Origin: Oscillospiraceae bacterium
Lineage (GTDB): Bacteria > Bacillota > Clostridia > Saccharofermentanales > Saccharofermentanaceae
Assembly (NCBI GenBank): GCA_902802325.1
Contig: CADCLV010000004.1
Coordinates: forward strand, 124,001 to 188,000
DNA: 64,000 bases
Direction of reading: 5' to 3'
In this document: one piece after another, positions 27,216-38,573 of the stretch
How the letters are laid out: every line of letters begins with the position of its first letter
Position numbering within the stretch: position 1 is the stretch's first letter
The notes under the pieces: model-generated
Databases searched by the model: none
Told to the model about the DNA's origin: nothing
Seen by the model: the letters and a program-made list of their open reading frames with translations, nothing else
Made by a program: the position numbers and the translations under genes

Positions 27216-27247
27216 AAAAGGAACTGCCTTTTGGGGGCAGTTCCTTC
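27216..27247 (-). terminator. Intrinsic terminator after the giant surface protein and peptide gene
   Basis: Minus strand GGAACTGCC, loop, GGCAGTTCC then TTTTCG. Almost the same sequence as the terminator behind tRNA-Arg at 32021-32051 (AAAAGGAACTGCCTTT identical, then CAGTTCCTT identical). Confidence 0.88.
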
Positions 27248-27284: not shown

Positions 27285-27398
27285 TCAGTCGCCACCCCCA
27301 TCTTGTCCCTCGTTATTTCCATAGGGGGAAGCGGTAATGACATCTTCGTTATCAAATTCCATTATCTCCAGTTTCAGAGCCTCGTACTTCTTTTCCAT
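27285..27398 (-). CDS. 37-residue peptide of unknown function
   Basis: A short gene with a proper ribosome site (GGAGG, 7-8 bases before ATG 27398) and a stop at 27285. It begins 15 bp after the stop of the giant secreted protein and before the shared terminator. The peptide starts MEKKYEALKLEIMEF, has a central DVITAS motif and ends in an acidic glycine-rich tail (QDGGGD). The Y-x-K/A-x-K-LE-x-E pattern followed by DVIT and Ser is reminiscent of short Clostridial peptides that I cannot name with certainty. No modification enzyme or dedicated exporter is adjacent. It may be a signalling or precursor peptide; that is inference. Confidence 0.6.
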   Translation of the reverse strand: MEKKYEALKLEIMEFDNEDVITASPYGNNEGQDGGGD

Positions 27399-27413
27399 TT
27401 TCTTTTCCTCCGC

Positions 27414-30400
27414 TTACTCGTTAATTATACCAGACAAGTTCGCCCGTACAAGTTCTCCGTATACTGTATGTTCCTCACCGGCCTCATCCCGGTAAACGAG
27501 ATACGAACGGGCACACCAGACATCGTTTTCACCGATTTCCTTCTTCGTCCATGTGTACTTAAATGCCAGATAGTCGTAACATGTGGTGTCATTATATCTG
27601 ACATACTTCGCCGTATCGGTCGTCAGTTCCGCGCCTTCCAGATCCGCTTCGTTACTGGCCACGATACCGGCCCGCAGGATCCGGGCACCTTCCGGAATGG
27701 ATACTTTCGATACGAAAGCCAGCTTTCCTTCGGAAACGAGCGTGACGCTTTCTATAAACGCAGTACCCTTCTTTTCCACTTCGGCCTCAACGTCCGAATA
27801 TACAGCCTCAAGGGTCATGTCATGGGAAGCGACATGGAAGTAATATGTTGCGTTATAACTTGCCACTTCGCCATTAAGCTCCCAGTGGTCAAACTGTTTT
27901 CCTTCCTCCGCCGGATCTGCCTTAGCAGTAAGTTCTGTGGCAGACCGGAAATCGCCTTCTCGAATTCCATCTTCAAAGGTACCGCCGGTAACAGTAACAT
28001 GATATATTTCTTCTTTCTGCTCATAATCCACTTCTACCAGGATCGGTTCAGAAGGAGCTTCTGCTACCAGTTCCGCGACTGCTGCCTGTACCTCTTCCGA
28101 TGTAGAATAGAGCGTACCATTTACTTTCCATCCGGCAAAATCATAGCCATCCAGATATGGAGAAGCAGGAACTTCAAAGTCTCTTTCACTAAAGTCCTCG
28201 ACGCGGACACGCAAAGGTGTAATGTAACCGTTGATGTCCTTCTCATCGATCTCCACCATGGTGTATTCTTTTTTCGGGATCACCAGTTCTTCCCATTCGA
28301 CTACGACATACTCTCCGTCTTCCATAATGTAATAGTTACCATCTGAACCGAAGTAGTATTCGAGGTGGCCTTCCGCCTCGTAAGTCGGATCCAGTGCTTC
28401 AACGTACTCGTAGGACACAGAAGCTCCATAGATTTCAAAATAGAATACCGCCGCGTCGATCCAGAGTTTTCCATCCTTATCCTTGGGATCTCTTTCCTGG
28501 ATGACCAGCTGATATGTGCCGACCTCCACTGGTACTCCGTCCATGGGGAAGGTATATTCTTCTTTTTCCTTCATCACCACTTCACGGAACTCATAGCGGA
28601 CATCGCCCATCTTCTCCAGTTCGCCCCAGTTGCCTTTTCCGCCGTCTACGGAAAGGCCCTTGAACGGATCGAAGAAGACCGGTTCGCCGTCATATTCCTT
28701 GTCGAGGTATTCGTTAAGTTCATAAGTATGCTCACCGGAAACATTATATTCCGTCACAGAAAAACTCGTGGAGGCAACTATGGTCTTTACATCATGGTCC
28801 ACATAAAGGAACTGAAGGCTGTACTCACCCGGCTGGGTAGGACCGTAGATAAACCAGCGCGTTCCACCGATCACATCACTGTCTCCGGCAGAAAGCACAT
28901 CCAGGTCACCTGTCGGATGGACCCATTCCTGACCTGTCGAAAGGTCGATCCACCTGAACTCCATATGTACCGGAGGAGTGCCGATCGTCATAGTACTCTC
29001 GCCCTCCGCATAATAGAAGTCTGCCCAGAGAGAGGGAATATACGGATACAGGAATGTCTCCAGCGAGATCCGGCACACATCATTTACCGTATAATCATCG
29101 ATTCCGGAAGTAAGCGAGAAGGAAAGATCCTTCCACACCGGGGTTGCGATCTTATTGGAGGTGATCGTAATTTCCTGTCCCTCATAGTATGCCGCGTTGT
29201 TGATCACCCAGTGGTCCAGCATCTTTCCTTTCGGCGGCTGAAGTCCGCACTGCGGAAGCGTCACTTTTCCGCCTTTTCCGGCATATACCGGTTTCATCGC
29301 TTTTTTGCCACGATCCAGACCCTGGATCCAGTAACCCATGGAACCGCCGTTATAGTCATATGGCCTTTCATTATCAAAATTGATAGCAGGACCCAGAAGT
29401 GTTACGAAGCACACATCCGATTCAATGACGCTGTCTTCGTCTTCTGTGAGCCATGCACGGAGCCGGTAATAATGCAGGCCCCATGTGCTTGCATCTCCGT
29501 TATTGATAAATGTATAACCGGTGTCTGTCGGGCTCAGATATTGGGAATGGGTCTGCCCATCCTCATCTTCCCATATCATTTCCAGTTTGCAAGGAACAGC
29601 ATTCAGTCCCCACATCATGGTATCGCTCTCCCCTTGCTTGATATCCTGTGTGTTGTGATACCAAACCTTCAGGGCATCCTCATAATAGAAATACGGCTGC
29701 ATGGAGAACTGGAACTCCTCTACGGAGAACAGATCGCTGTATACCACGTCATTCTCTCCGTATCCGAAGTAAGCATAAAGATCATAGTTTCCATACGGAA
29801 GCGTATAAGTTCCCATGGAAGACGGATTCGGGAACTCGATGATTTCGAGGGTACCATCTTCCAGATACTTACGAGCACCTATACTCAGCGGCTCAAAATT
29901 CAGTTTCCATGTAACATCTCCACTATAACCCGAATGCGGCAGCGTTACCTCTCCATTCACCTCTGTAAATTTCTCATATCGTCCGATCGTAAAAGGCTTA
30001 CTGTCTACGTAAACCGTTGATTTTGATCCATAGGCAGTATTGAAGCATAAGTTTTCCCGGATAAAGTAAACGCCCGGCGACACAGTGTAGTAAACCCCAT
30101 CATGCTCTTCCAACGGAAAATCCTTTTTATATACGCCACTGGCATCTCTTTTCCACAGTTCATAACTATCCCATTCCGTATGTTCAAAATTGATTTCCCA
30201 GTCAACCACACAATACGGAAACAGAGAAAGACCGCCTTCATGTTTTTCCAGCACACCGTCCTGTGGCTGCTTGGTAAACTGCAGATGTTCACTCACCGCA
30301 AACCCTGTGGCAACATACATATCATCAGTGAAATAAGCGCGAAGCTCAAATCCACCTGTTTCATGATCCAGATAGAAGAAATCATTCACCTTCTTGATAT

Positions 30401-31892
30401 TCTTCACCTCAGCATGGTGGCCGGCCACACTATAAGGGGATTCTTCATATTTATAAAGTACGATTCGGCACGGATGGAAATTCAGTTCCCAATCCACATA
30501 GAATGTGTTGTATTCGTTGACCATACCGGATACCGGGGTTTTCGTGAAGTGTATATCAAGATATGTCTCTACGAATACATCAGACGCTACAAATCCCACT
30601 TCCGAATAGTAGGCACGGAGATAGTACTCTTTCGCTCTTTCAGGCACAAAGTCCGTTATCGTCTTTTTCGTCTTATCGACATCCGTAATCGTTCGTTCGG
30701 TCACCCATTTTTTATTCTCAACGTATCCGATTTCCACCCGCTCCGGATTAAAATTGGTTTTCCAGCTTAAGCTATAGTGGAGTTTTCCAAATCCGGTAGA
30801 AGAATTTGTTTCGGAGGTATAGTAACTGCCTTCTGGCTGCATTTCAAATCCCAGATCACCCTGCGAAACATTGAAGGCTTTCTCCAACGTGCAGTATTCT
30901 GAAAACTTCGCCCGGATCACATAACGGCCCGGCATATAAATCGGATAGTTTGTTTCCCATACGTACGGATACCCGACGATTCGATCTTCTGTCTCATAGT
31001 ATACTTCGATCCGAAGCGGTGTCTGTGTAAACTCGAATGGAACAAGATAGTGCACCGCATTGTGGTTGTCTGTATACTGTAAGGAACCATCTACCGGCTC
31101 CGTAGTAAAATCAAAACCCGAGTTATCCGCATGAAAGTAGTCGGAAATGATGTATTTACCATCACAGTAATATGCCACGATAGCATAATCAACATAAGGT
31201 TCTGGAAGAAAACCGTCATATTCGAAATTTCCGGAAGACATACTTTTAAAAGACTTATCCGTTGTCCAGCTATATTCACCGTGGTTATACTTCACATCGT
31301 GAACGATCATCAGCTTTGTGGGAGTAAACGGAGTCTTGCAGGAGATTTTAAACTTCGTACTGAAATCATACGGATTATCTTCTGAATGACCGGACTCGGT
31401 ATAGTAGCTTCCGCTCTGCGGCTGCTCGCTGAAACTGAAATACGAAGAATAGGCACTTCCTAAGGAGATCGTATTTGAAACTATACTGGCATTCTTCCAC
31501 GTACCATCATACTGCTGTTCGGGATAGTAGGTCTTTACACGAATAATTTCGCCATAATACCTGATATCGACCGGGCAACTTTGTTCCTTTGAATATACAG
31601 CAGCTTCAACGTGCTTAATCGAAACATACTCTTCCGCACCATAGTCATAATGCTCAATATCGTATGACGTCTGATTAAAGTCTGTTTCCCAGCTAATCGT
31701 AAATTCGTTCTTACTTGAATCGAACACATCGTGAGGCTGTACGATAAAAGTATGCGAATCCGCCAGAACATTCTGTGCGAATCTGGCTCCTAGAAGAAGA
31801 TTCGTGTTTAAGGCAACGATCAGAAGGACCGCGACCGCCCGCCACCATGTCTTCCTACGCATTTTCCCTGTAAAACAACTCGAATTACCCAT
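27414..31892 (-). CDS. Giant secreted/surface repeat protein
   Basis: 1492 residues from the ATG at 31892, which follows AGAGGTG; the frame extends to 31931. A signal peptide (about 1-45, ending near QNVLADS) indicates export. Residues about 45-860 hold roughly eight degenerate units of 90-110 residues. Each opens with F-x-x-x-P-x-x-G and contains W-x-x-NF-x-P (for example FTKQPQDG, VDWEINFE). A later part contains a divergent InlB/Flg_new_2-like repeat (VTVTGGTFEDG, DHWELNG, about 1310-1380). There is no LPxTG, S-layer or choline-binding anchor at the C-terminus. Likely an extracellular adhesin or binding protein. Ligand unknown. Confidence 0.8.
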   Translation of the reverse strand: MGNSSCFTGKMRRKTWWRAVAVLLIVALNTNLLLGARFAQNVLADSHTFIVQPHDVFDSSKNEFTISWETDFNQTSYDIEHYDYGAEEYVSIKHVEAAVYSKEQSCPVDIRYYGEIIRVKTYYPEQQYDGTWKNASIVSNTISLGSAYSSYFSFSEQPQSGSYYTESGHSEDNPYDFSTKFKISCKTPFTPTKLMIVHDVKYNHGEYSWTTDKSFKSMSSGNFEYDGFLPEPYVDYAIVAYYCDGKYIISDYFHADNSGFDFTTEPVDGSLQYTDNHNAVHYLVPFEFTQTPLRIEVYYETEDRIVGYPYVWETNYPIYMPGRYVIRAKFSEYCTLEKAFNVSQGDLGFEMQPEGSYYTSETNSSTGFGKLHYSLSWKTNFNPERVEIGYVENKKWVTERTITDVDKTKKTITDFVPERAKEYYLRAYYSEVGFVASDVFVETYLDIHFTKTPVSGMVNEYNTFYVDWELNFHPCRIVLYKYEESPYSVAGHHAEVKNIKKVNDFFYLDHETGGFELRAYFTDDMYVATGFAVSEHLQFTKQPQDGVLEKHEGGLSLFPYCVVDWEINFEHTEWDSYELWKRDASGVYKKDFPLEEHDGVYYTVSPGVYFIRENLCFNTAYGSKSTVYVDSKPFTIGRYEKFTEVNGEVTLPHSGYSGDVTWKLNFEPLSIGARKYLEDGTLEIIEFPNPSSMGTYTLPYGNYDLYAYFGYGENDVVYSDLFSVEEFQFSMQPYFYYEDALKVWYHNTQDIKQGESDTMMWGLNAVPCKLEMIWEDEDGQTHSQYLSPTDTGYTFINNGDASTWGLHYYRLRAWLTEDEDSVIESDVCFVTLLGPAINFDNERPYDYNGGSMGYWIQGLDRGKKAMKPVYAGKGGKVTLPQCGLQPPKGKMLDHWVINNAAYYEGQEITITSNKIATPVWKDLSFSLTSGIDDYTVNDVCRISLETFLYPYIPSLWADFYYAEGESTMTIGTPPVHMEFRWIDLSTGQEWVHPTGDLDVLSAGDSDVIGGTRWFIYGPTQPGEYSLQFLYVDHDVKTIVASTSFSVTEYNVSGEHTYELNEYLDKEYDGEPVFFDPFKGLSVDGGKGNWGELEKMGDVRYEFREVVMKEKEEYTFPMDGVPVEVGTYQLVIQERDPKDKDGKLWIDAAVFYFEIYGASVSYEYVEALDPTYEAEGHLEYYFGSDGNYYIMEDGEYVVVEWEELVIPKKEYTMVEIDEKDINGYITPLRVRVEDFSERDFEVPASPYLDGYDFAGWKVNGTLYSTSEEVQAAVAELVAEAPSEPILVEVDYEQKEEIYHVTVTGGTFEDGIREGDFRSATELTAKADPAEEGKQFDHWELNGEVASYNATYYFHVASHDMTLEAVYSDVEAEVEKKGTAFIESVTLVSEGKLAFVSKVSIPEGARILRAGIVASNEADLEGAELTTDTAKYVRYNDTTCYDYLAFKYTWTKKEIGENDVWCARSYLVYRDEAGEEHTVYGELVRANLSGIINE

Positions 31893-31954
31893 AAATGCAC
31901 CTCTTTTTTTCCAATGCTTCCCATATTCCATTTTTAGTTAGGATTATCAAACTT

Positions 31955-32055: not shown

Positions 32056-32132
32056 TGGCGCGCCCGGCAGAGATCGAATCCACAACCTTCTGATCCGTAG
32101 TCAGACACTCTATCCAGTTGAGCTACGGGCGC
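32056..32132 (-). tRNA. tRNA-Arg (anticodon ACG)
   Basis: 77 bases with an encoded CCA. Acceptor arms GCGCCCG and CGGGCGC, D-loop AGCTCAACTGGATAGAG, anticodon stem TCTGA/TCAGA with loop CTACGGA (ACG), T-arm with GGTTCGATTCC-like bases (TTCGATC). The first anticodon base is expected to become inosine, reading CGU, CGC and CGA. Confidence 0.95.
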
Positions 32133-32164: not shown

Positions 32165-32193
32165 ATTTTAGTCCCACGATTGGAAATTGTCAA
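32165..32193 (-). promoter_or_regulatory. Promoter of tRNA-Arg
   Basis: TTGACA (32188-32193, perfect), 17-bp spacer, TAAAAT (32165-32170). The -35 overlaps the stop codon of the histidine kinase gene. Confidence 0.87.
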
Positions 32194-33119
32194 TGGTCTT
32201 TCGAAGGATTCTCCAATTTTTTCTTATCCAGCGGGATCGAAATGGTGATCTTAAACAGTCCTTCGTCTACGCACGCCGAGATTTCACCATGCATTCTGTC
32301 CACCAGGCCCTTGGCGATGGAAAGTCCCAGACCTGTGGAAGTCGAGGTTCTGGCCCGGTCTCCTTTATAGAATCTTGTAAAGATCTTATCCACATCGATG
32401 ATCTCTTCTTCTTTTTTATCGTTATAGCAGAGGAAAAGAAGCGAATCTTCTCTTTTCTGAAGTTTCAGGCCCAGCCTGTTCTTACCGTGCTCCAGTGCAT
32501 TTTTGACCAGATTCTGGACGACACGGCGAAGCGCCACTTCGTTACCGATGATCGGCAGCTCATCTTCACAGAATTCCACCTCCGGCTGAAGTCCGCGCTC
32601 CTCGAAGTCTTCATAGAAGGCCAGTACGGTCTCGCAAATGCACTGTCGGGCGTCCATCGGCATACAGGCCAGTTCGTAGTGCTGATCCTGCATCTTGGTA
32701 TAGGTAAAGAGTTCTTCCAGAAGTTCCTTCAGGCTGGAAATACGGTTCTGGATGATCTTCAGGTAATGCTCCTGTTCCTCCTTGGAATCGGACATGACCA
32801 GAAGCTGGACATAGCCGTCCAAAGATGTCAGCGGAGTTCTTATATCGTGAGACAGGTTGGCGATGGCCTCTTTCAGGTTATTCTCATTTCTTTCGATCTG
32901 AATGCTGTCCTGCTGGTAACGGTTACAGATATCGTTGACACGCATTACAAGCTCATTGATCTCACCGTAAGGCACTTCAGAAGTCAGCCGCTGGTTCGAG
33001 GAATGCTTCTGCATCACCTGAAGCTGCCGGCAATTCTTCCGGATCTGGTTACGGTACTGGATCATGGCGATCAATAGCGCTAAAGCAATGACCGTTGCTA
33101 CAATGGCCCAGATAATCAT
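32190..33119 (-). CDS. Sensor histidine kinase
   Basis: 309 residues. A single N-terminal hydrophobic segment (about 2-20) and no extracellular sensor domain are seen. The dimerisation domain has the phospho-accepting His in NLSHDIRTPLTS (about 88-99). The HATPase part has the N box (NLVKNALEHG), a G-box region GLGLSIAKG, and F-box RFYKGD. Kinases beside peptide-type ABC transporters usually detect flux or the peptide through the transporter, consistent with the lack of a sensor. It is 3 bp after ABC ATPase 1 and is the last gene of the module whose response regulator is at 38488. Confidence 0.92.
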   Translation of the reverse strand: MIIWAIVATVIALALLIAMIQYRNQIRKNCRQLQVMQKHSSNQRLTSEVPYGEINELVMRVNDICNRYQQDSIQIERNENNLKEAIANLSHDIRTPLTSLDGYVQLLVMSDSKEEQEHYLKIIQNRISSLKELLEELFTYTKMQDQHYELACMPMDARQCICETVLAFYEDFEERGLQPEVEFCEDELPIIGNEVALRRVVQNLVKNALEHGKNRLGLKLQKREDSLLFLCYNDKKEEEIIDVDKIFTRFYKGDRARTSTSTGLGLSIAKGLVDRMHGEISACVDEGLFKITISIPLDKKKLENPSKDH

Positions 33120-33122
33120 CTC

Positions 33123-34058
33123 TTACTTCGCCCCCTGGTTTTTCCCGGTATTTCGTTCCGAAGTCAGAGACAGATAATAATCTTCCAGCGCCTCATTTTT
33201 CACTTCGATACCCAGTGTCTTTATGTTGTTTTTTGCAAGTTCCAGAACGATATCGCCGCTTCCGTCCAGTCTCTCATAGATCTGGATCAAGCTTCCATCC
33301 ATGATCTTAAATTCCGTAATGCCCATTTTTTCAATGACCATACATGCCTTTACCGGATCCGAGGTGCGAAGCTCGATCCTTTCCCGGCACCGCCGCAAAA
33401 GCTCCTGATGGCTGAATGTATCGATCATATGTCCATGATCGAGGATACCGTAGCGGTTTGCAAGCTTACTCATCTCTTCCAGGATATGGGAGGAGATAAT
33501 AACGCTGATATTTCTTTCTTTACTTAACCGGCCGATCAGGTCACGGATCTCAACGATACCCTGCGGGTCGATTCCGTTAATGGGTTCATCTAAAAGGAGA
33601 AGGTCCGGATGACCGACAAGCGACATGGCGATACCCAGACGCTGCTTCATACCCATGGAGTACTTCTTTACCGGACGCTTGTCTTTTATGGAAAGACCCA
33701 CATCTTCCAGAAGCTCCCGGACATAGGCCGAGTCATTCATTCCCAGCGTCAGTTCCTTAAGCTTCATATTCTCCCAGGCATTCATATTGGGGTAAAGTCC
33801 CGGAGTTTCCAATAAAATTCCGATTCTGTCCCGAAGCGTTTTACTCTTTTCCGGGGACTCCCCGAAAATGGTGAAACTTCCCTCTGTGGGACGTGCCAGG
33901 CCCGCCAGGATCTTTAACAGTGTCGTTTTTCCGGCGCCGTTTCTGCCGATCAAGCCATAGATCTCGCCTCTCTGAAGACGAAGATCCACATGATCCAGTG
34001 CCATCACCGAACCGTATTTTTTCGATATGCCATTTGTTTCCAGAATATATTCTTCCAC
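33123..34058 (-). CDS. ABC transporter ATPase 1 (LanF/BcrA-like)
   Basis: Peptide/antibiotic-type ABC ATPase of the LanF/BcrA family. Walker A GRNGAGKTT, signature YSMGMKQRLGIA, Walker B LLLLDEPINGIDP, switch His in ISSHILEEM. The frame reaches 34094, but a promoter -10 at 34104-34109 and AAGGAG 8 bases before a GTG at 34058 favour that start. It gives EEYILETNGISKKYG, aligning with the two sister ATPases (311 residues). It has no dedicated permease gene beside it and is transcribed with the kinase. Confidence 0.9.
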   Translation of the reverse strand: MEEYILETNGISKKYGSVMALDHVDLRLQRGEIYGLIGRNGAGKTTLLKILAGLARPTEGSFTIFGESPEKSKTLRDRIGILLETPGLYPNMNAWENMKLKELTLGMNDSAYVRELLEDVGLSIKDKRPVKKYSMGMKQRLGIAMSLVGHPDLLLLDEPINGIDPQGIVEIRDLIGRLSKERNISVIISSHILEEMSKLANRYGILDHGHMIDTFSHQELLRRCRERIELRTSDPVKACMVIEKMGITEFKIMDGSLIQIYERLDGSGDIVLELAKNNIKTLGIEVKNEALEDYYLSLTSERNTGKNQGAK

Positions 34059-34103
34059 AAAAATGTCTCCTTCTGCCAGTGGAGAGCCTTCCACAGTATT
34101 CTT

Positions 34104-34131
34104 ATTATATCATGAGAATAATCCGGCTCAA
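34104..34131 (-). promoter_or_regulatory. Promoter of ABC ATPase 1 and histidine kinase
   Basis: TTGAGC (34126-34131), 16-bp spacer ending TGA, TATAAT (34104-34109): -35 plus extended -10 on the minus strand. It shows the kinase and ATPase 1 form their own unit. Confidence 0.82.
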
Positions 34132-34133
34132 AA

Positions 34134-34180
34134 AGAAAATAGAATCTGCCCTGGGGTAAGGACAGGTTCTATTTCCATGT
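34134..34180 (-). terminator. Terminator after ABC permease 1
   Basis: Minus strand AATAGAACCTGTCC, loop, GGGCAGATTCTATT (14-bp stem, one mismatch and one G-T pair) followed by TTCTTTTT. It separates the permease 1 unit from the ATPase 1-kinase unit. Confidence 0.78.
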
Positions 34181-34214
34181 TAAGAGGGTATTATGTTAGA
34201 AAGGTCATGCAACA

Positions 34215-35009
34215 TTATTTCACATCTCTCTTCTGGGTAAGAAGCATGCTGCCTCCTACCGAGAATACCAGATAACCAACGCATACAGCTGCCAGGATCA
34301 GACAGGCGGTCATGCCGGAGTCCATATTGAAGTTCAGGAACTTGGCATCGAGGAAAAGGTCTGTCGGAAGAAGCTTCGGGCTGCCTGCCACCTTCTTGAC
34401 CAGAAGGTCCAGAAGCTGCTCGATCATGTACAGTATACCTGTGCAGATCACCAGGGACGGAACGACGCCGCCTGCGGCACTTCTGAAAGCTGTGGTGAAG
34501 AAGAAGAATACACCGGCAAGAGCTACGGTTCCAAGATATGTCAGGCCCAGTGTCTTAACAAATGCTGTGGCGCTTCCGAAGGTGAATGCATTGACAAACA
34601 GTGCGCTGCAGCCGATACCAATGATACCGGTGATCGCCATCAGGGCGGTAACACCGATCACTGCTGCGATGAAGCGGGACAGCGGGTGCAGCCATCTGTG
34701 CTTGGTAATGCCGATGATGTTCTTATCAAATCCGCACTTCTGCTCTGCATTTGCGAAAAGAACTACGAATACTGCAACAATGATCAGGAAGTTGCTGGAG
34801 CGGAGGAAATTCGAAACCAGTGTCGATGCGGTAACAGAATCAAATCCCATTTCGCTAGCCATGCTGCCCATGATGTTAAACGGATCATCCGCGATCAGCT
34901 TCAGGATACCAAACTGCATAAGGCCGAACAAAGCAGATACAATCGCCAGTACCTTTGTTGATGTCGCATTCATCATGCGATACAAGTTCATTTTGATCAG
35001 ATTAATCAT
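34215..35009 (-). CDS. ABC transporter permease 1 (LanE/LanG-like)
   Basis: 264 residues with about six hydrophobic segments, the usual form of lantibiotic-immunity type ABC-2 permeases. It begins MINLIKMNLYRMMNATSTKV and ends QKRDVK, an ending shared with permease 2 (KKRDVKI). It overlaps ATPase 2 by 8 bp, so that pair forms a transporter. Probably moves a peptide or lipid-II-targeting antibiotic away from the membrane, which is inference from the family. Confidence 0.85.
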   Translation of the reverse strand: MINLIKMNLYRMMNATSTKVLAIVSALFGLMQFGILKLIADDPFNIMGSMASEMGFDSVTASTLVSNFLRSSNFLIIVAVFVVLFANAEQKCGFDKNIIGITKHRWLHPLSRFIAAVIGVTALMAITGIIGIGCSALFVNAFTFGSATAFVKTLGLTYLGTVALAGVFFFFTTAFRSAAGGVVPSLVICTGILYMIEQLLDLLVKKVAGSPKLLPTDLFLDAKFLNFNMDSGMTACLILAAVCVGYLVFSVGGSMLLTQKRDVK

Positions 35010-35916
35010 TGCTCTGTCCTCCTGTCAGCTGGAAGTAATAGTCTTCAAGTGCATCGCTCTTCAGTGCGATCTCATTGGTCATAATATTTTCTTTGGCAAG
35101 TGCCACGGTGATCTGGCCGCCTTCGTTTAATCTCTCATAGATGTTGATGGTGTCATCTTTTACTTCGATCTTGGAGAAGCCCATGGAATTGAGTACTTCG
35201 AGAGTCTTGGTGATATCGTTGGTCTTCAGTTCCAGTCTCTCACTGCAGCGGGCGAACAGTTCTTCTTTGCTGGCTTCTTCCAGAAGTTTTCCTTCGTGGA
35301 TGATGCCGTAGCGGGTCGCTACCTTGCTGAGCTCATCGAGAATATGGCTGGAGATCAGGATCGTAATACCACGGTCATTGCAGAGGTGATGCAGGATCTG
35401 GCGCATTTCCGCGATACCCTGCGGGTCCAGGCCGTTGATCGGCTCATCGAGGATCAGAAGTTCCGGCTGATTCACCAGTGCCATCGCGATACCCAGTCTC
35501 TGCTTCATGCCGAGGGAGAACTGCTTAGCTTTCTTCTTGCCGGTATTTTCCAATCCGACTTCCTTAAGAAGTCCCTGAAGATAAGATTCATCTTTGATAC
35601 CCAGGGCGATCGCCTTTGTCTTTAAGTTCTGCATCGCTGTCATGTTCGGATACAGACCCGGAGCTTCGATCAGGATACCGACTTTCGGCATCATCTTTTC
35701 GGTCTTCTCCCCGTTCTTTCCGGTGATTTCAAAAGAACCGGATGTGGGGTGGGTCAGACCGCCGATCATTTTCATAAGAGTGGTTTTACCGGCACCGTTT
35801 CTGCCGATCAATCCGTAAATGTCACCGCGCTGTACATGGATCGATACTTCATTAGAAGCTTTATAAGATCCGAACTTCTTGGTAAGCGCATTCGTGGTTA
35901 AAATGTAATCCATCAT
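35002..35916 (-). CDS. ABC transporter ATPase 2 (LanF/BcrA-like)
   Basis: 304 residues. Walker A GRNGAGKTT, signature FSLGMKQRLGIA, Walker B LLILDEPINGLDP, His switch ISSHILDEL. The C-terminal half (about 215-304) is the extra domain found in BcrA-like ATPases. It pairs with permease 1 (8-bp overlap). Two adjacent ATGs follow GGAGGAAGCA; the first is used here. Clearly a paralogue of ATPases 1 and 3. Confidence 0.92.
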   Translation of the reverse strand: MMDYILTTNALTKKFGSYKASNEVSIHVQRGDIYGLIGRNGAGKTTLMKMIGGLTHPTSGSFEITGKNGEKTEKMMPKVGILIEAPGLYPNMTAMQNLKTKAIALGIKDESYLQGLLKEVGLENTGKKKAKQFSLGMKQRLGIAMALVNQPELLILDEPINGLDPQGIAEMRQILHHLCNDRGITILISSHILDELSKVATRYGIIHEGKLLEEASKEELFARCSERLELKTNDITKTLEVLNSMGFSKIEVKDDTINIYERLNEGGQITVALAKENIMTNEIALKSDALEDYYFQLTGGQSND

Positions 35917-36000
35917 TGCTTCCTCCTTTGTGTTTACAAGTTCATTCTAACGATGAATTCCTAAACAATCGCCAAGAGGAGTTTTATAAATGGATAAGAA

Positions 36001-36028
36001 ATTATAAAGAAAAGATAAAGTGACTCAA
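36001..36028 (-). promoter_or_regulatory. Possible internal promoter before ABC ATPase 2
   Basis: TTGAGT (36023-36028), 16-bp spacer, TATAAT (36001-36006) on the minus strand. The -35 overlaps the permease 2 stop. The leader is about 80 bases. Confidence 0.6.
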
Positions 36029-36891
36029 ATCTTTACATCCCGCTTTTTAGCCAGAAGAACTGCCAAACCCAGTCCTATCAGGGCATACGCCGCCGATACG
36101 ATTACGGTACGGGCAATATCTGACTGTTCCATAGCCGGAGAGAAAGAAATAAATACATTATCTATACAGTAATCAGAAATACGGAAAAACTTTCTGGCTC
36201 CTTCTTCGGCAAGACCGGTAAAGGCCATGATCGTTTCTTTGCCGGTCGCACCGGAAAGCTTAGCGATGATCACATCGATCAAACGCTCGATACTCTGAAG
36301 GATACCGCTGGCGATCACAAGACCGATGACCATACCGCCTGCAGAACTCTTAAAGAGGGAGGTGATCAGGAAGACCATCGTCATCATGGCGATACATCCG
36401 ATATATACGACGACGAATTCGATCAGATACAGATCCCAGTTTCCGGATTCATAAGAAGTACGGTAGCAAAGGATCGCCAGGCCCAAGGAGACGATAGAGG
36501 TGACCAGATAAACGAGCGTAACCGAAGACATTACCGCACACCACTTGGCCAAAACCAGCTTTCCCTTATCTTCGAACATGCCGTAAATGTTCTTCACAAA
36601 TCCTTTCGTGATATCACTGTTGGTCATCAGTACCGTAAAGATCGTAAGAAGGATCAAAAGCGCGCTGTTGCCCTGAATAAAGAACTGATGCACCAGATCC
36701 GGTGTCAGGGAGACATCGGAACCATTGCTCTGGATATAAAGCCCGCCTGCCTGAATATTCAGCGGATCTTCAAATACAATGTATCCCAGACCCAGATGAA
36801 GGAATGTGAAAACAACAAGTAAAATACCCAGGACCAAAGTCGACTTGGACTTAAGGGTACGATATATATGCATGCGGAAAAGATTATACAT
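36025..36891 (-). CDS. ABC transporter permease 2 (LanE/LanG-like)
   Basis: 288 residues with about six hydrophobic segments. It begins MYNLFRMHIYRTLKSKSTLV, close in pattern to permease 1, but has a longer loop after the first segment (about 38-70), which would face outside. It overlaps ATPase 3 by 8 bp, repeating the ATPase-permease arrangement. Probably arose by tandem duplication of an ATPase-permease pair. Confidence 0.85.
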   Translation of the reverse strand: MYNLFRMHIYRTLKSKSTLVLGILLVVFTFLHLGLGYIVFEDPLNIQAGGLYIQSNGSDVSLTPDLVHQFFIQGNSALLILLTIFTVLMTNSDITKGFVKNIYGMFEDKGKLVLAKWCAVMSSVTLVYLVTSIVSLGLAILCYRTSYESGNWDLYLIEFVVVYIGCIAMMTMVFLITSLFKSSAGGMVIGLVIASGILQSIERLIDVIIAKLSGATGKETIMAFTGLAEEGARKFFRISDYCIDNVFISFSPAMEQSDIARTVIVSAAYALIGLGLAVLLAKKRDVKI

Positions 36892-37795
36892 GGGGATTTC
36901 CTCCTGTCAGCTGGAAGTAGAATTCTTCAAGAGACTGTCCTTCCGAACGGATCTCCAGAGTCTGGATATCCGATTTGGCCAGCACCATGGAGATCTGCCC
37001 ACCCTGATCCACTCTCTCACGGATCTCAAAGTGATCACCGTCAAAGGAATAGTCCGAAATACCCATCTCAGAAAGGACTTTCTTCGTCTTTTCCGGGTCG
37101 TTGGTACGAAGGAAAATATGCGGCTTGCACTGCGCCATAAGCTGCTCGTTTGTAGCTTCCGCCAAAAGTTTTCCATTATGGATAATTCCATAGCGGTTCG
37201 CAACTTTACTCAATTCATCCAGAATATGGCTGGAAATGAGGATCGAAATATGACGCTCGGTGCAAAGGCGGTGAAGAAGATTACGGACTTCCGCAATACC
37301 CTGCGGATCCAATCCGTTGATCGGCTCATCCAAAAGAAGAAGCTCAGGTGAATTTACCATAGCCAGACCGATTCCCAGTCTCTGCTTCATACCTAAAGAA
37401 AAATTCTTCACGGGTTTATTTCCGACAGCACCCAGACCGACAAAGTCCAGAAGATCACGGATATATTTATCATCATTCACACCGTAGGCAATGCCCTTGG
37501 CCTTCATGTTATGAAATGCGCTCAGGTTCGCATAAAGGCCCGGATCTTCGATCAGAACGCCCACCTTCTTGCGCATCTGTGCTTCCGTCTCGCCATTGGC
37601 GCCGGAAAGGGTAAAAGATCCGCTGGTAGGAAAAGCCAGACCTGCGACCATCTTAAGAAGAGTCGTCTTGCCGGCGCCGTTTCTGCCGATGAGACCATAG
37701 ATCTCTCCCCGTTCCACATGGATCGAAACATTGTCGACAGCCAGTTTTTGCTTATATTTCTTCGTGATCTTGTCTGTTGTCAGAATAAAACTCAT
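36884..37795 (-). CDS. ABC transporter ATPase 3 (LanF/BcrA-like)
   Basis: 303 residues. Walker A GRNGAGKTT, signature FSLGMKQRLGIG, Walker B LLLLDEPINGLDP, ISSHILDEL. It starts 12 bp after the response regulator and overlaps permease 2, so it is the first transporter gene of the regulator-led transcript. Its C-terminus ends LEEFYFQLTGG, matching ATPase 2 (LEDYYFQLTGG), further evidence for duplication. Confidence 0.92.
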   Translation of the reverse strand: MSFILTTDKITKKYKQKLAVDNVSIHVERGEIYGLIGRNGAGKTTLLKMVAGLAFPTSGSFTLSGANGETEAQMRKKVGVLIEDPGLYANLSAFHNMKAKGIAYGVNDDKYIRDLLDFVGLGAVGNKPVKNFSLGMKQRLGIGLAMVNSPELLLLDEPINGLDPQGIAEVRNLLHRLCTERHISILISSHILDELSKVANRYGIIHNGKLLAEATNEQLMAQCKPHIFLRTNDPEKTKKVLSEMGISDYSFDGDHFEIRERVDQGGQISMVLAKSDIQTLEIRSEGQSLEEFYFQLTGGNPHV

Positions 37796-37807
37796 ATATA
37801 AAGCTCC

Positions 37808-38488
37808 TTATTTAGCAAGCTTGTATCCGATACCCCATACTGTCTCGATAAACTCGGTATCCGTGAATTCCTTGATCTTCTTTCGGATATTACTGATATG
37901 CACATTGATGGTCTTATCTTCACCGATGTAGATCTCATTCCAGGCGCAGTCATAAATATCCTGCTTGGTGAACACACGCTTCGGGTGGGCAACCAGAAGG
38001 GCCAGGATCTGGAATTCTCTTTTCGTCAGCTGGATCTCGTGATCGTTGACCATAACCGTAAAGGACTGCTCATCCAGCGTCAGTTCCTTATAGGTCAGTT
38101 TGCCTTCACTTACTTCTCCGGCTCCGGAGTTATTACGGCGGATCTGTACAGCTACGCGGGCCAGAAGCTCCGGGATCTCAAAAGGCTTCGTGATATAGTC
38201 TTCCGCACCGGAAGTCAGCATCTCCACCTTCGTATCCATCTCGTCTTTCGCGGATACCACGATGACCGGCACATTCTTGATCGCCTTCATCTTCGGGAAA
38301 AGTTCATCACCGCAAAGTCCCGGCAGCATCATGTCCATGAGCACCAGGTCATAATTATCTTTTTCATAATAAAGGAGCGCCTCGGTTCCGGAAAATGCCT
38401 GTGTGCATTCATATCCGGCCTTCTTCAAGGCCTCTGTCATCATATGGTTGATCTCGGTATTATCTTCAATAATTAATAGTTTTTTCAT
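37808..38488 (-). CDS. OmpR/PhoB-family response regulator
   Basis: 226 residues. Receiver domain with the acidic pair in IIEDN, the phosphorylated Asp in LVLMDMMLPG (about 52), and Lys in ITKPFE, followed by a winged-helix domain (LTKREFQILALL, INVHISNIRKKI). The ATG at 38488 lies 4 bases after GAGGTGG; a longer frame to 38512 lacks a ribosome site. It heads the transporter operon and is presumed to be activated by the kinase encoded 4.7 kb downstream. Confidence 0.94.
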   Translation of the reverse strand: MKKLLIIEDNTEINHMMTEALKKAGYECTQAFSGTEALLYYEKDNYDLVLMDMMLPGLCGDELFPKMKAIKNVPVIVVSAKDEMDTKVEMLTSGAEDYITKPFEIPELLARVAVQIRRNNSGAGEVSEGKLTYKELTLDEQSFTVMVNDHEIQLTKREFQILALLVAHPKRVFTKQDIYDCAWNEIYIGEDKTINVHISNIRKKIKEFTDTEFIETVWGIGYKLAK

Positions 38489-38573
38489 AATCCACCTCGC
38501 TTTATCTATCATATCATAAATACCGGATCTTCATGATATAATCTTTTCGGAAAAAGAAAGGCAGGAAGAGTAT
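38489..38573. promoter_or_regulatory. Divergent promoter region, response regulator / tyrosine phosphatase
   Basis: Plus strand: TGATATAAT (38534-38542), an extended -10 about 32 bp before the phosphatase ATG. Minus strand: TATGAT (38513-38518) is a candidate -10 for the response regulator, without a good -35, which fits an activator-dependent promoter. Confidence 0.55.

Follow-up and report, generated by a model that had tools for sequence, protein, structure and literature searches.

Directly behind the gene for a giant exported protein, in a 64,000-nucleotide stretch of an Oscillospiraceae genome (the window), lies an open reading frame of 37 codons. Is so short a frame a gene, and if it is, does its product act as made or is it the precursor of a modified peptide?

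A short gene and its family

The frame is found on the minus strand at 27285-27398 (start at 27398) and comprises 37 codons followed by TGA; its translation is MEKKYEALKLEIMEFDNEDVITASPYGNNEGQDGGGD. The first-pass annotation had described a 37-residue gene with a good ribosome-binding site, and the GGAGG found 8 nt from the ATG agrees with that description. The neighboring exported protein, given there as 1492 residues, has this length when read from the second ATG and 1505 residues when read from the first. The proposed common terminator was located as a hairpin and T-run at 27247-27217; a terminator pattern scan by itself was not significant (1 found versus 0.7 expected), and the same hairpin is kept 3' of the homologue in a sister genome (G016). 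The features of the locus are as follows.

27217..27247, minus strand: intrinsic terminator 3' of the peptide gene (12-pair hairpin and T-run)
27285..27398, minus strand: 37-aa gene, candidate precursor of a RiPP resembling the linear polyphosphorylated peptides (LPP-like; from ORF reading, paralogues, profile matches and alignment)
27407..27411, minus strand: ribosome-binding site GGAGG, 8 nt 5' of the ATG (from the sequence)
27414..31931, minus strand: partner exported protein, 1505 aa, with an N-terminal signal sequence (ORF; its stop is 15 bp from the peptide gene)

A search of Pfam and NCBIfam with the 37-aa peptide returned no model. A frame of just 37 codons in the trailer of a giant gene could have arisen by chance, and one genome alone is not decisive. 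Homologues, for which the first-pass annotation had proposed a tblastn search, were found in numbers. The window genome contains five family copies: the window copy and, on other contigs, four paralogues. A profile built from these five has matches in 20 of the 23 genus genomes, with up to 13 copies each, and also matches 8 genomes from a sister genus. It has no match in the other sampled families of the order; a broader profile extends the family to several more families of the class. Two orthologous paralogue pairs differ mainly by synonymous changes (dN/dS of about 0.19, from few sites). Because of the four paralogues, the presence in 20 of the 23 genus genomes and the mainly synonymous divergence, the gene is real, and a chance reading frame, which this conservation across the family contradicts, was rejected with a residual probability that we place close to nil.

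The N-terminal part of about 20 residues is conserved and of fixed length, Y-x-x-[L/P]-x6-F-x3-D-[V/I]-I-T-x-S, and the DVITAS string picked out earlier as a central motif is the end of this block. Among 67 homologues the Phe is present in 67 of 67, the Asp in 65 of 67, the Tyr in 64 of 66 and the Ser in 63 of 67. In a larger set of 98 homologues, for which the search pattern itself required the Phe and the Asp, Tyr was found in 96 and Ser in 94, and residues beyond the Ser are close to random. YxxL is present in 51 of these 98 sequences and YxxP in 18. The spacing from Tyr to Ser is fixed across the multicopy family, and the short, acidic tail varies, with E, G, D, P and N abundant. By these alignments, the window peptide is a member of a large, multicopy and unnamed family of short, probable precursor peptides.

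Pairing with genes for secreted proteins

The peptide gene probably shares a transcript with the gene for the giant exported protein, since the two lie 15 bp apart and have a common terminator. Of the four paralogues in the window genome, three lie directly after the gene for a secreted or large 5'-cut protein and the fourth lies directly before one. In the two best-sampled genera, 57 copies have a readable upstream gene, and for 53 of them this is a same-strand gene at a distance of no more than 120 bp. The products of 51 of these 53 genes are at least 450 aa long, and 50 have a cut 5' end or an N terminus judged to be signal-like by a simple home-made heuristic. Thus 50 of 57 peptide copies follow the gene for a large secreted protein, versus 92 of 483 other ORFs (P = 3e-25). 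At three exceptions (L009, L045 and L076) the secreted protein is encoded just downstream of the peptide. Five other families of the class were also read, and nearly all of their copies keep the pairing, with L231 as the clear exception. The pairing of peptide genes with genes for secreted proteins is therefore shown; a search of the open-licence literature found no paper that describes it.

The domains of the partners include LRR, beta-helix, InlB-type, LamG-like and Ig-like modules; the window partner (31931-27414) carries an InlB-type repeat at residues 1313-1380. No LPxTG was found near the C terminus of the window partner or near the ends of the other partner proteins that were checked. 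A C-terminal module common to many partners was considered as the sole determinant of the pairing and rejected, with just 52 of 89 terminal modules preceding a listed peptide. The C terminus of the window partner, moreover, differs from this module, and we therefore take the link to be with secreted proteins in general.

Just upstream of the giant gene, at 32190-38512 on the minus strand, are genes for a histidine kinase, three ABC ATPases, two permease-like partners and a response regulator; a tRNA gene (32059-32132, minus strand) separates the giant gene from that of the histidine kinase. A layout of histidine kinase, response regulator and ABC genes also occurs in peptide-antibiotic immunity. 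With a histidine kinase and three ABC ATPases encoded so close, the peptide might give rise to a secreted signal or autoinducer that is read by a sensor, a role that would suit short, multicopy peptides with variable tails. Copies at other loci, however, adjoin surface proteins and not sensors, and no signal peptide, double-glycine leader or AgrB-like neighbor was seen. We regard a signaling role as very improbable.

A kinase, an RRE, a protease and an exporter

In several genomes the peptide gene is clustered with genes for a PqqD-like protein, an S26-like protease, an HprK-like kinase and an ABC exporter. The first-pass annotation had proposed a search for conserved neighbors such as radical-SAM enzymes or exporters. 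Beside the window peptide there is no radical-SAM gene, and the enzymes of these clusters are not its neighbors; in the window genome the exporter is encoded on a third contig and the other enzymes on another. Genes for the HprK-like kinase, a PqqD/RRE protein and an SpI-like protease are adjacent at G000:C2:8452-9939 (locus L115). The closest match in this genome to the MsbA-like exporter of the clusters is found at G000:C10, directly after clpC, which is the place occupied by the kinase and protease in G019 (L129). All four enzymes are thus encoded in the window genome, the trio on C2 and the exporter homologue on the separate contig C10.

The RRE of the window genome is recognized by the Pfam PqqD model (8e-12). 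No significant match to the RRE sequence was found in the PDB; the fold comparison did provide one, with an RRE model (pLDDT 90) matching TbiB1 and TfuB1, two lasso RREs solved with their leaders. The model of the kinase (pLDDT 93.5) matches HprK/P. Ser24, His69 and Asp84 of the protease are invariant in 10 of 10 aligned sequences.

With an alignment of the kinase, 80 named kinase loci were collected; they come from Clostridia of the rumen and gut, Ruminococcus flavefaciens among them. Both an RRE and a protease are encoded near the kinase at 56 of the 80. At 30 a peptide gene is no more than a few kb from the kinase, and 27 of these 30 also have the RRE and protease; the peptide is also close to the kinase in L064, L080-L082, L118, L119, L130 and L244. 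In a sample of the class, the peptide was found in 24 of 48 kinase-positive versus 0 of 48 kinase-negative genomes (P = 2e-9, uncorrected for phylogeny). Among 98 relatives, 25 have both, 4 the kinase only, 3 the peptide only and 66 neither (P = 5e-16, likewise uncorrected for phylogeny), and the three genus members that lack the peptide also lack the kinase. The kinase search gave no match in three peptide-bearing genomes (G001, G003 and G036). One of the genomes counted as kinase only (G039) does have a peptide at the kinase locus, a divergent one with YxxP, and divergent leaders may perhaps also account for the half of the kinase-positive genomes in the class sample that gave no peptide match. 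The association of the peptide family with the HprK-like kinase and its enzyme set is shown by these data.

The peptide could also be an unmodified accessory of the preceding surface protein (a chaperone, a stabilizer or an export helper), with the link to the kinase reflecting the shared ancestry of two surface systems. The excess of copies that directly follow a large secreted protein, its recurrence in the five other families and the lack of linkage between peptide and enzymes in the window genome are all consistent with such a role. Against it stand the many loci at which the peptide lies inside a cluster of RRE, kinase and protease genes, the joint absence of peptide and kinase within one genus, and a division into a conserved RRE-type leader and a hypervariable tail that resembles RiPP precursors. 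We consider an unmodified accessory unlikely. The earlier suggestion that the peptide is the precursor of a modified product thus gains support from the family, the co-occurrence with the kinase and the clusters, all of which is comparative evidence.

Short genes for lipoproteins or proteins with a single transmembrane segment are frequent at the LPP-like loci (L080:6253-6993, L082:3943-4365, L137:5392-5898, L204:9363-9845 and others). Their products have a linker rich in Ser, Thr and Pro and end with ELPFVPxx. The same LPxxP-like string is found in some precursor tails, and the tail in L140 ends with SGELPFVPAE. In L164 (8068-8610) a lipoprotein is in frame with a complete precursor that has a leader, DVITTS and an ELPIIPIR tail; this fusion suggests that the lipoprotein tail and the peptide core may be related. 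Longer precursors of 114-126 aa (METPKMDVVRFQEADVIVASGD...) are encoded in genomes of the sister genus (L131:9317-10308 and L132:8927-9271), together with RRE-like, S26-like, kinase and ABC genes.

Predicted maturation and comparison with known RiPPs

Linear Polyphosphorylated Peptide (LPP) RiPPs of Paenibacillus and other Bacillota were first described in May 2026 in Nat Commun (PMC13381572), and the biochemistry of the machinery has been published for Paenibacillus (PMC13381572). The RRE LppB, through residues N33 and D70, binds the leader motif YxxPxVLxHQxIxFETxxS / Px9Fx[T/A], in which the Pro of LppA matters for binding; LppK phosphorylates Ser3 of the LppA core; the SpI-like LppS, with catalytic residues S29, H68 and D93, cuts LppA after F-E-T; and LppD is the expected exporter (PMC13381572). 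An MsbA-like exporter and an NTP transferase are further features of the LPP systems (PMC13381572). By analogy, the window peptide can be divided as follows.

27348..27398, minus strand: predicted leader, residues 1-17, MEKKYEALKLEIMEFDN, with a putative RRE-binding YxxLxL segment and the conserved F15 (alignments and analogy to LppA)
27288..27347, minus strand: predicted core, residues 18-37, EDVITASPYGNNEGQDGGGD, with conserved D19, V20, I21 and S24 and a variable acidic tail (alignments)
27327..27329, minus strand: codon of Ser24, the proposed kinase target (Ser in 94 of 98 homologues; analogy to Ser3 of LppA)

The most likely site of cleavage, an uncertain assignment modeled on F-3, E-2 and T-1 of LppA (PMC13381572), is after F15-D16-N17; 64 of the 98 homologues have A, S, N or T at the third position of the F-x-x triplet. 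A cut nearer to Ser24 is possible.

The peptide is, in our judgment very probably, the precursor of a linear LPP-like RiPP, made with its surface-protein partner and matured in trans by enzymes encoded elsewhere. Residues 5-10 (YEALKL) would bind the PqqD-type RRE, the HprK-like kinase would phosphorylate the conserved Ser24, which is the likely phosphosite, and the SpI-like Ser-His-Asp protease would remove the leader to give EDVITASPYGNNEGQDGGGD. The MsbA-like exporter would then take the short acidic phosphopeptide out of the cell, where, we speculate, it acts with the surface protein from the same transcript. On comparative grounds, a single small set of enzymes, encoded elsewhere in the genome, appears to modify and release the peptides of the family. 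The location of precursors and enzymes on different contigs in the window genome counts against this LPP-like maturation in trans, as do the three peptide-bearing genomes with no kinase match, the half of the kinase-positive genomes with no peptide match, and a leader with YxxL and a Phe spacing unlike that of LppA. A broader proposal, which we advance tentatively and hold to be somewhat less probable than its negation, is that a single trans-acting set of kinase, RRE and protease matures many scattered precursors genome-wide in gut and rumen Clostridia, each phosphopeptide being dedicated to the large surface protein encoded next to it, as a ligand, an anchor or a capping group.

Phosphorylated lasso peptides of the paeninodin type also have an RRE-recognized leader of the [Y/W]xxP type, an HprK-like kinase and an MsbA-like exporter. 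Membership in this class was rejected, since the window genome, 95.6% complete, lacks the lasso leader peptidase (B2, PF13471); the leaders reported here are also unlike the lasso leaders listed for rumen bacteria (PMC7533575). The RRE fold is shared with PqqA/PqqD and radical-SAM RiPP systems, and a reading of the genes near the window peptide and near the G000:C2 enzyme locus showed no radical-SAM gene. The sole relative found beside such a gene, a divergent peptide (MKYVKPEAEIINIENEDIVVASIGCP...) directly before a radical-SAM/SPASM protein (L133:6156-7819), indicates that similar leaders may serve another chemistry.

Piece by piece, the enzyme set has its counterpart in the LPP machinery. 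Both systems have short precursors with a conserved N terminus, a variable C terminus and a conserved Ser shortly after the leader. Both have an HprK-like kinase, a discrete RRE and a SipW/SpI-like Ser-His-Asp protease, here encoded together at G000:C2:8452-9939, in addition to an MsbA-like exporter, here a homologue on a separate contig, and no macrolactam cyclase was seen at the loci. S24, H69 and D84 of the protease correspond to S29, H68 and D93 of LppS. The equivalents of N33 and D70 of LppB, assigned by position and fold without direct alignment to LppB, are conserved in 55 of 55 and 52 of 55 RREs from the named loci, and both are invariant in the alignment that includes the RRE of the window genome.

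The leader differs from that of the LPPs, being Yxx[L/P]x6F...DVITxS; the window peptide has Y-E-A-L with the Phe 10 residues after the Tyr, a spacing unlike Px9Fx[T/A]. Homologues at many loci are encoded in or near an enzyme cluster, and the window copy is not. Because of its leader and its unclustered precursor, we call the window peptide LPP-like and do not file it as an LPP. Published LPP clusters contain one to three precursors, many of them among capsule genes (PMC13381572), whereas a genome studied here can have as many as 13, at dispersed sites, each next to the gene for a large secreted protein. The terms "Clostridi", "Lachnospir", "surface" and "adhesin" are absent from the main text of that report (PMC13381572), and the new element here is that the precursors are scattered and that a surface protein accompanies each of them. 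If the pairing holds, a widespread and unannotated peptide family of the rumen and gut becomes testable. No function has been assigned to the LPPs (PMC13381572); the surface proteins found beside the precursors (LRR, beta-helix, Ig-like and lectin-like) are a strong hint at where the function of phosphorylated RiPPs may be sought, and a genome-wide surface system, if true, would provide a definite biological role for LPP-type RiPPs that could be tested.
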